NCBI GenBank assembly: GCA_025453975.1
Contig: JALOPI010000012.1
Span: 25,228 to 89,227, forward strand
Reading direction: 5' to 3'
Source: Syntrophobacteraceae bacterium
Lineage (GTDB): Bacteria > Desulfobacterota > Syntrophobacteria > Syntrophobacterales > Syntrophobacteraceae
Length of the DNA: 64,000 nt
Part shown: piece after piece, positions 56,659-58,681 of the stretch
How positions within the stretch are numbered: position 1 is the stretch's first letter
Layout: the number at the start of each line of letters is the position of its first letter
The notes under the pieces: generated by a model
What the model was told of the DNA's origin: nothing
The model's input: the letters and a program-made list of their open reading frames with translations, nothing else
Database searches by the model: none
Translations under genes and position numbers: made by a program

Positions 56659-57918
56659 ATGAAGAGCGTGCTGAGATTGTACAACACCATGTCACGAAGC
56701 AAGGAAGTGTTCGTGCCGCGCAGCTCGACCGGAGTCAAGATGTTCACCTGTGGACCTTCCGTTTACCGCAGACCGCACGTGGGCAACTATCGGACCTTCG
56801 TCTGGGAGGACCTGCTGCTCCGATACCTGCGTCATCTGGGCTACTCCGTGGAGAGGGTGATCAACCTGACGGACATCGAGGACAAAGCCATCGCCGAAGC
56901 GGGACGACATGAAGTGAACGTCGGGCAGCTCACCGGCGAAGTGGTGGATCGTTTCCTGGATGAGTGCCGCCGGCTGCGGATCGATCTCCCTGGCATCATT
57001 CCCCGCTCTTCGACATCGGTGGACCAGGCTGTCGAGCTGATCAAAGTTCTGCTCCACAAGGGTTATGCCTACCGGCATGGCGGGGATATCTTCTTCGATC
57101 CCCTCAAATACGACGGGTTTGGAAGACTGTTCGGACTGGACATGAGCCGCTGGCCCAGCCAGAAGCGACGGTTCAGGCGCGACACCTATCCCGGGAGGCG
57201 CTGGAACCTGGGGGACTTCATCCTTTGGCATGGGGAGAAGAAAGGGGTGGAACCGGTCTGGAGCACCGAGATCGGCCGGGGGAGACCCGCCTGGAACATA
57301 CAGGATCCTGCCATGATCACCAAGCACCTTGGCTTCTCCCTCGACATCTGCTGCGGGGGGATCGACAATCTCTATCGCCACCACGATTACAACCTGGCAG
57401 TGGTCGAAGCCTCGTCGGGAGTCGATTTGGCCCGCTTCTGGATTCATGGTGAGCACCTCCTGTCCCGCGGCAGGAAAATGTCCAAAAGTATCGGCAACAT
57501 TGTCTATGTGGAGGATCTGGTCCAGGGAGACTTCACCGCGGATCACCTGAGATTTTTCCTGCTTTACGGACACCATCGCAAGAGGGTCAATCTGCTGCCC
57601 TCCAGCTTCGAGAAGACCGCGGCACGGCTCGACGATCTGAGACGCCGGGTGGATCTGCTGCTTTCGGACACCTTGCCGATGGGCCTGGAAGCCCTGCCTC
57701 AGGGGGATCCGGCCGGGTCCCTCATCGATGATTTCAACGATCGAATGAACGATGACCTGGATGCGCGGTCCGCCATCGACTCCCTGTTCTGCAATCTGGA
57801 TCGCCTGGAGACCATGCGGAGCAATGGTCTTCTGGCGGCTCGGGGGCGCGATGGGGTCAGGGCGGCCCTGGAGCGCATCGACGAGGTGATTCAATGCATT
57901 TTTGAGGTGCGGGAATGA
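56659..57918 (+). CDS. Class I CysRS/MshC-like adenylating enzyme, divergent
   Basis: 'MFTCGPSVYRRPHVGNYRTFVWEDLLLRYL', 'VINLTDIEDKAIAEA', 'KMSKSIGN'; zinc-region motifs altered; 419 aa. Confidence 0.75.
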   Translation: MKSVLRLYNTMSRSKEVFVPRSSTGVKMFTCGPSVYRRPHVGNYRTFVWEDLLLRYLRHLGYSVERVINLTDIEDKAIAEAGRHEVNVGQLTGEVVDRFLDECRRLRIDLPGIIPRSSTSVDQAVELIKVLLHKGYAYRHGGDIFFDPLKYDGFGRLFGLDMSRWPSQKRRFRRDTYPGRRWNLGDFILWHGEKKGVEPVWSTEIGRGRPAWNIQDPAMITKHLGFSLDICCGGIDNLYRHHDYNLAVVEASSGVDLARFWIHGEHLLSRGRKMSKSIGNIVYVEDLVQGDFTADHLRFFLLYGHHRKRVNLLPSSFEKTAARLDDLRRRVDLLLSDTLPMGLEALPQGDPAGSLIDDFNDRMNDDLDARSAIDSLFCNLDRLETMRSNGLLAARGRDGVRAALERIDEVIQCIFEVRE

Positions 57919-57937
57919 GAATGCCAGGGGTGGACCG

Positions 57938-58681
57938 ATGATGGACGAGGGTAGGGGGGATGCCCGGCTGCCAGGGGGCCTGGTGCAGGTGGCGGGCATT
58001 CTGGACATGGGCGAAGCCCGTCTGCTTCTGGAGGCGGGGGCGCACCTTCTGGGTTTTCCCCTCGGTCTGGACTTCCACGAAGAGGACATCCCCTGGGTCG
58101 AGGTGGCGCGAATCGTGAGGGTTTTGGGGCTGGAGCGGAGCGGGGTCCTGATCACGTACCTGAGTTGGCCGGGGGACATTCTTGAGCTGGTACGGCGGAT
58201 TGGGGTCCGAACGGTGCAGCTCCACGGAGCCGTGAGCGTGGAGTGTGTCCGTGAGCTGCGGCGGCTCATGCCGGAGCTGGTGGTCATCAAGAGTCTCATC
58301 GTGCGCGAGGGCGGCCTGGGCGGCTTGCTGGATGAGATGAGAGCGCTCGAATCTCGGGTGGATGCCTTCATCACGGATACCTTCGATCCCGAGACGGGGG
58401 CTTCCGGAGCCACGGGAATGACCCACGACTGGCAGGTCAGCCGGAGGCTGCGGGAGGCCACCTCAAAGCCCTTGATTCTCGCCGGGGGGCTGACCCCGCA
58501 AAACGTGCGCGAGGCGATCCTCGCCGTCGAGCCGCATGGCGTCGACGCTCACACAGGGCTGGAAGGCCCTGGCGGCCGAAAGGATCCTTGGAAAGTGAAA
58601 GCCTTCGTCGCCCAGGCGAAGCGAGGCTTTGCAGAATTACGGGCTTCCATGGAGGCTCATGTCCCCGAACCCTCATCGTAA
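57938..58681 (+). CDS. TrpF (phosphoribosylanthranilate isomerase)-like TIM-barrel protein, catalytic Cys absent
   Basis: 'VQVAGILDMGEARLLLEAGAHLLGF', 'VQLHGAVS', 'LAGGLTPQNVREAI', 'GVDAHTGLEGPGGRKDPWKV'. Confidence 0.78.
   Translation: MMDEGRGDARLPGGLVQVAGILDMGEARLLLEAGAHLLGFPLGLDFHEEDIPWVEVARIVRVLGLERSGVLITYLSWPGDILELVRRIGVRTVQLHGAVSVECVRELRRLMPELVVIKSLIVREGGLGGLLDEMRALESRVDAFITDTFDPETGASGATGMTHDWQVSRRLREATSKPLILAGGLTPQNVREAILAVEPHGVDAHTGLEGPGGRKDPWKVKAFVAQAKRGFAELRASMEAHVPEPSS

Follow-up and report, generated by a model that had tools for sequence, protein, structure and literature searches.

A probable stand-alone CysRS-derived ligase with an altered metal site, encoded beside a TrpF-like paralogue in Syntrophobacteraceae

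The window, a stretch of 64,000 nucleotides from a Syntrophobacteraceae bacterium, carries a CysRS-like gene followed on the same strand by a TrpF-like gene:

56659–57918, forward strand: CysRS-like ligase of 419 aa, a member of the rewired clade that lacks the anticodon-binding domain (PF01406, 231 bits; AF2 pLDDT 91; clade support 100)
57938–58681, forward strand: TrpF-like (beta/alpha)8 protein without the catalytic Cys (PF00697, 63 bits; AF2 pLDDT 88.5)

The stop of the first frame lies 19 nt from the start of the second, which is preceded by an AGGGG-type ribosome site. Neither frame arises by chance, given their Pfam E-values (2e-68 for PF01406 and 4e-17 for PF00697), the retention of the altered residues in 47 homologues and dN/dS ratios against the nearest relative of about 0.14 (CysRS-like) and 0.16 (TrpF-like), with dS near saturation. 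Every motif that the initial annotation cited for the first protein (FTCGP, PHVGN, KMSKSIGN, AWNIQDPAM, DICCGG and RHHDYN) is present as quoted, as are those of the second: VQVAG in place of VKICG, no SPR and the C-terminal phosphate-site motifs. The host genome encodes a separate canonical cysS (C26, 458 bits) and a separate canonical trpF (C75, with VKICG and SPR). A third CysRS-like protein of this genome is fused to a cysteine synthase (C45).

Residues of the ligase pocket were assigned by sequence mapping onto the numbering of E. coli CysRS, whose zinc ligands we take to be Cys28, Cys209, His234 and Glu238, and whose alpha-amino-binding residues are presumably Asp229 and Thr68. The alignment places the following features:

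56749–56751, forward strand: Cys31, matching zinc ligand Cys28; present in 47/47
56776–56787, forward strand: HVGN, the HIGH-type ATP-binding motif; HxGN in 47/47
57292–57309, forward strand: WNIQDP where CysRS has WHIECS; the Cys209 equivalent is Asp216, 47/47
57349–57393, forward strand: CCGGIDNLYRHHDYN; His234 has its counterpart here, Glu238 does not; Cys232 is new (44/47)
57475–57489, forward strand: KMSKS motif; M274, S275 and K276 do not vary; 40/47 have the first K

The suspected loss of at least two of the usual zinc ligands extends across all 47 homologues. Only the equivalents of Cys28 and His234 are kept among the four; Cys209 is replaced by Asp in every clade member and Glu238 by Asn, Thr, Ser or Ile. 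Further changes found in all or nearly all members are Glu208 to Gln, His206 to Asn, Asn237 to Tyr and Glu236 to Asp, and the new cysteine (window Cys232) corresponds to E. coli position 225. The equivalents of Cys28, His234, Trp205, Asp229 and Thr68 are kept in all 47 members together with HxGN and MSK, and 55 columns are invariant across the bacterial and archaeal sequences. The altered metal site makes it less likely that cysteine is recognised in the usual way. The invariant Asp229 and Thr68 equivalents, in turn, favour an alpha-amino acid as substrate, and the organic acid that had been proposed as an option is unlikely. With HxGN, MSK and the alpha-amino site all invariant, the protein looks like an active amino-acid-activating paralogue, as first suggested. 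Altered zinc ligands might also be expected of a non-functional relic, a reading that is hardly credible considering the dN/dS of about 0.14 and the invariance of the ATP-site residues across two domains of life.

All 47 members are 404–433 aa long and lack the anticodon domain, whereas CysS runs on to about 480–497 aa. The 419 aa of the window ligase agree with the MshC-like size noted initially (about 410 aa, no anticodon domain). Profile searches confirmed its relation to CysRS through PF01406 but left it outside both specific families, with 278.5 bits against a cut-off of 340 for TIGR00435 (CysS) and 164 bits against 485.1 for TIGR03447 (MshC). Sequence searches of the PDB scored 215 bits for CysRS versus 124 for MshC. 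The AF2 model is of high confidence and has a CysRS fold (best PDB matches CysRS, TM 0.87, then MshC, 0.81); its substrate pocket was read from the sequence mapping.

A scan of GTDB genomes retrieved 121 encoding stretches; 80 of these were retained. Carriers belong to Desulfobacterota (including Syntrophobacteraceae), Spirochaetota, Nitrospirota, Bathyarchaeota, Methanofastidiosa and Methanosarcinaceae, so that the observation made in the window holds more generally than first stated, clade-wide in bacteria and archaea. In Desulfobacterota, the host's phylum, about 10 of 297 evenly drawn genomes are carriers; clade members score 450–650 bits, and all other CysRS-like proteins in these 297 genomes reach at most 366 bits. 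About 7 of 61 genomes drawn around Methanococcoides encode a protein of matching size and score. One Methanosarcinaceae homologue (G397:C4:463732-464637) contains one in-frame TAG, which may encode pyrrolysine. Among phage and plasmid sequences nothing closer than ordinary CysRS (about 35% identity) was found, and no real fusions that would reveal a partner were found among the homologues. In a tree of 55 sequences, the 33 members form one clade (SH-aLRT 100; stem length 1.27 changes per site), apart from CysS and from the CysK-CysRS fusions. These fusions (about 770–850 aa) are common in Desulfobacterota (L003/L145, which is G000:C45, and L181-L188). In most of them the cysteine/zinc site is intact (GWHI[EQ]C-like, HHENE) and KMSKS is eroded, a mirror image of the rewired clade, and they perhaps carry a cysteine-sensing domain on the cysteine synthase. 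We found no paper on the rewired clade in the open literature, and this family of CysRS-derived enzymes is apparently undescribed.

The ligase is not the cell's CysRS. Canonical CysS accompanies the paralogue in the host genome and in 15 out of 20 carriers whose loci were searched. Methanococcoides, Methanomethylovorans and Methanofastidiosum lack canonical CysS and encode SepRS above the cut-off; in two fragmentary Desulfobacteraceae bins canonical CysS was not found, which incompleteness may explain. By genome content, the ligase would be dispensable for charging tRNA-Cys with cysteine. A divergent but otherwise ordinary second CysRS would account for the fold and motifs, but not for a score below the CysS cut-off, for zinc ligands altered in every member or for the presence in carriers of canonical CysS, or of SepRS where that is absent, one archaeal carrier (G367) having both; we regard it as very improbable.

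The second gene of the window encodes a TrpF relative whose altered motif lies here:

57986–57997, forward strand: QVAG where TrpF has KICG; Gln and Ala do not vary among 11 sequences

It shares with TrpF/PRAI the (beta/alpha)8 fold, the phosphate site and the position of the catalytic Asp (TDTFDP), but lacks both the catalytic Cys and the Arg of SPR. All 11 paralogues read QVAG or QIAG, in which Ala takes the place of the catalytic Cys and Gln that of Lys. The protein passes the cut-off of the broad Pfam PRAI model (PF00697) and misses those of all NCBIfam TrpF models (best 99.7 versus 215); in Foldseek searches, the best fold for its AF2 model is PRAI (E 5e-15, TM of target 0.86–0.90). The idea of a TrpF paralogue without its general-base cysteine is therefore upheld, and from its sequence we consider the protein a genuine, probably catalytically altered, TrpF paralogue. 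The proposed coupling of the two genes fared less well. Within 6 kb of the ligase gene, a TrpF-like gene occurs in only 4 of 87 loci, all in Syntrophobacteraceae, and the pair is conserved as neighbours only locally; eight genomes of other families encode the TrpF-like paralogue without the ligase. A two-gene pathway, in which the ligase and a phospho-sugar isomerase-type TrpF-like enzyme act on one metabolite, would fit the gaps of 2–28 nt in three genera, the 4 kb spacing in a fourth genome and the finding that all four Syntrophobacteraceae carriers of the TrpF-like gene have the ligase nearby. Given the counts above, however, such a pathway is quite unlikely and a conserved ligase-TrpF operon is ruled out: the TrpF-like gene is merely a local companion of the ligase. 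Separately, the TrpF-like carriers (G001, G027, G029, G031, G033, G035, G037, G039 and G047) tend toward HgcA, which is present in 9 of 12 TrpF-like carriers versus 3 of 16 others among the relatives examined, a comparison confounded by family membership. For the ligase itself, a link to mercury methylation (HgcA), prompted by a similar taxonomy, was rejected, with about 15 of 35 carriers versus 10 of 25 others showing no association.

The rewired family is markedly basic, with a median pI of 9.1 versus 5.8 for CysS, and in same-genome comparisons (eight pairs and the host genome) the paralogue was more basic than CysS each time. The difference resides mainly in two regions:

57139–57228, forward strand: residues 161–190, a new conserved basic loop (WP, a Lys/Arg run, RF, DTYPG, WNxGDF); mean net charge +4.2 versus -1.0 in CysRS
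57559–57708, forward strand: residues 301–350, a second basic patch; mean net charge +4.3 versus -3.8 in CysRS

In the family their summed charge ranges from -1 to +17, compared with -10 to -1 in 13 CysS; the ligases of a few carriers, including one from Desulfohalobiaceae, are acidic overall. The two conserved patches suggest a polyanionic acceptor, perhaps RNA. Charge is indirect evidence for the acceptor, as an acidic surface does not keep ordinary CysRS from binding tRNA.

No recurrent tRNA gene adjoins the ligase in the 80 loci. The complete carrier genome G016 encodes an ordinary set of 47 tRNAs according to the Rfam tRNA model, with one gene per anticodon (three for Met), among them a single tRNA-Cys(GCA) and a single tRNA-Sec; that model shows no extra or orphan tRNA. 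A dedicated tRNA, at least one that the Rfam model detects, is thus unlikely. The initial annotation had favoured a pathway other than tRNA charging. As regards a dedicated tRNA this agrees with the one complete genome; the basic patches nevertheless favour a polyanion, and an RNA acceptor is possible. A candidate tRNA-Sec link in the host genome was discarded, the best matches being tRNA-Trp and tRNA-Ser. In Desulfobacterales, cysS* occurs with selC* and selB*, and CysRS*, a CysRS paralogue without the anticodon domain, charges a special tRNA with cysteine (PMC7609411, PMC9437257). The rewired ligase shares the missing domain, and several of its carriers are Desulfobacterales. That it should likewise charge a special tRNA with cysteine is nonetheless distinctly improbable: neither a recurrent selB-like neighbour nor an adjoining tRNA-Sec-like gene was found in the 80 loci, G016 has no extra tRNA and the cysteine zinc site is altered.

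No conserved operon partner or biosynthetic neighbour of the ligase was detected in 87 loci. In 12 loci of one subclade, from Nitrospirota and deltaproteobacterial genomes, a MATE-family transporter gene directly adjoins the ligase gene (L086, L094, L095, L098, L099, L107, L109, L111, L114, L115, L117 and L163). This exporter could instead indicate an exported small molecule. The enzyme would then be an MshC-like ligase that couples an amino acid to a small anionic metabolite through the latter's amine, yielding a thiol, osmolyte or signal for export in some lineages, in line with its size, domain loss and fold (TM 0.81) and with its patchy, accessory distribution in Desulfobacterota. We deem this rather unlikely, considering the low MshC profile and PDB scores, the strongly basic patches and the lack of conserved biosynthetic neighbours in the 87 loci. 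As side observations, a radical SAM protein is encoded a few genes upstream of the ligase in some Desulfobacteraceae-type loci (L126, L061 and L160), and a small cupin-like protein directly before it in L126 and L061.

Being common to many anaerobic bacteria and archaea, the rewired enzyme probably attaches some amino acid to another molecule. Our preferred reading, to which we give a probability of roughly 0.6, is that of a stand-alone class I ligase derived from CysRS that would adenylate some alpha-amino acid, either not cysteine or not recognised as cysteine is, and pass its aminoacyl group on to a polyanion. In the sequence the ATP and alpha-amino-binding sites are intact, the side-chain/metal pocket is rebuilt yet strictly conserved, the anticodon domain is absent and two conserved basic patches are new. 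Two kinds of acceptor seem likeliest. One is an ordinary RNA, where a tRNA nucleoside might be the target as it is for GluQ-RS, and to this we give a nearly even chance; the other, only slightly less probable in our view, is not RNA but a phosphorylated carrier or small molecule, by analogy with MshC. In its narrower form, that of an enzyme of anaerobic bacteria and archaea activating a non-cysteine amino acid onto RNA, as a new aminoacyl modification of ordinary tRNA, or onto another polyanion, the proposal is put forward with some reserve. In either case, a synthetase paralogue with a visibly changed substrate site is conserved over two domains of life, and aminoacylation of RNA or another polyanion, if true, would define a new modification or metabolite.

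GluQ-RS (YadB) is a truncated class I synthetase paralogue that derives from GluRS and acts on a tRNA base; its likeness to the ligase, which is CysRS-derived, is an analogy only. With CysS (TIGR00435) the ligase has in common the catalytic fold, HIGH/KMSKS, the alpha-amino site and the helical domain, but it differs in the replacement of Cys209 and Glu238, the missing anticodon domain, the new basic patches and its sub-cut-off score. MshC (TIGR03447) likewise combines one catalytic module with helices in about 410 aa, although the ligase is clearly nearer to CysRS. From CysRS*, which also lacks the anticodon domain, it is set apart, by description, by the absence of a selB*/selC* partner, a much wider taxonomy and the altered zinc site. 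MshC, GluQ-RS and CysRS* are all synthetase paralogues without an anticodon domain, in which new chemistry has appeared repeatedly.
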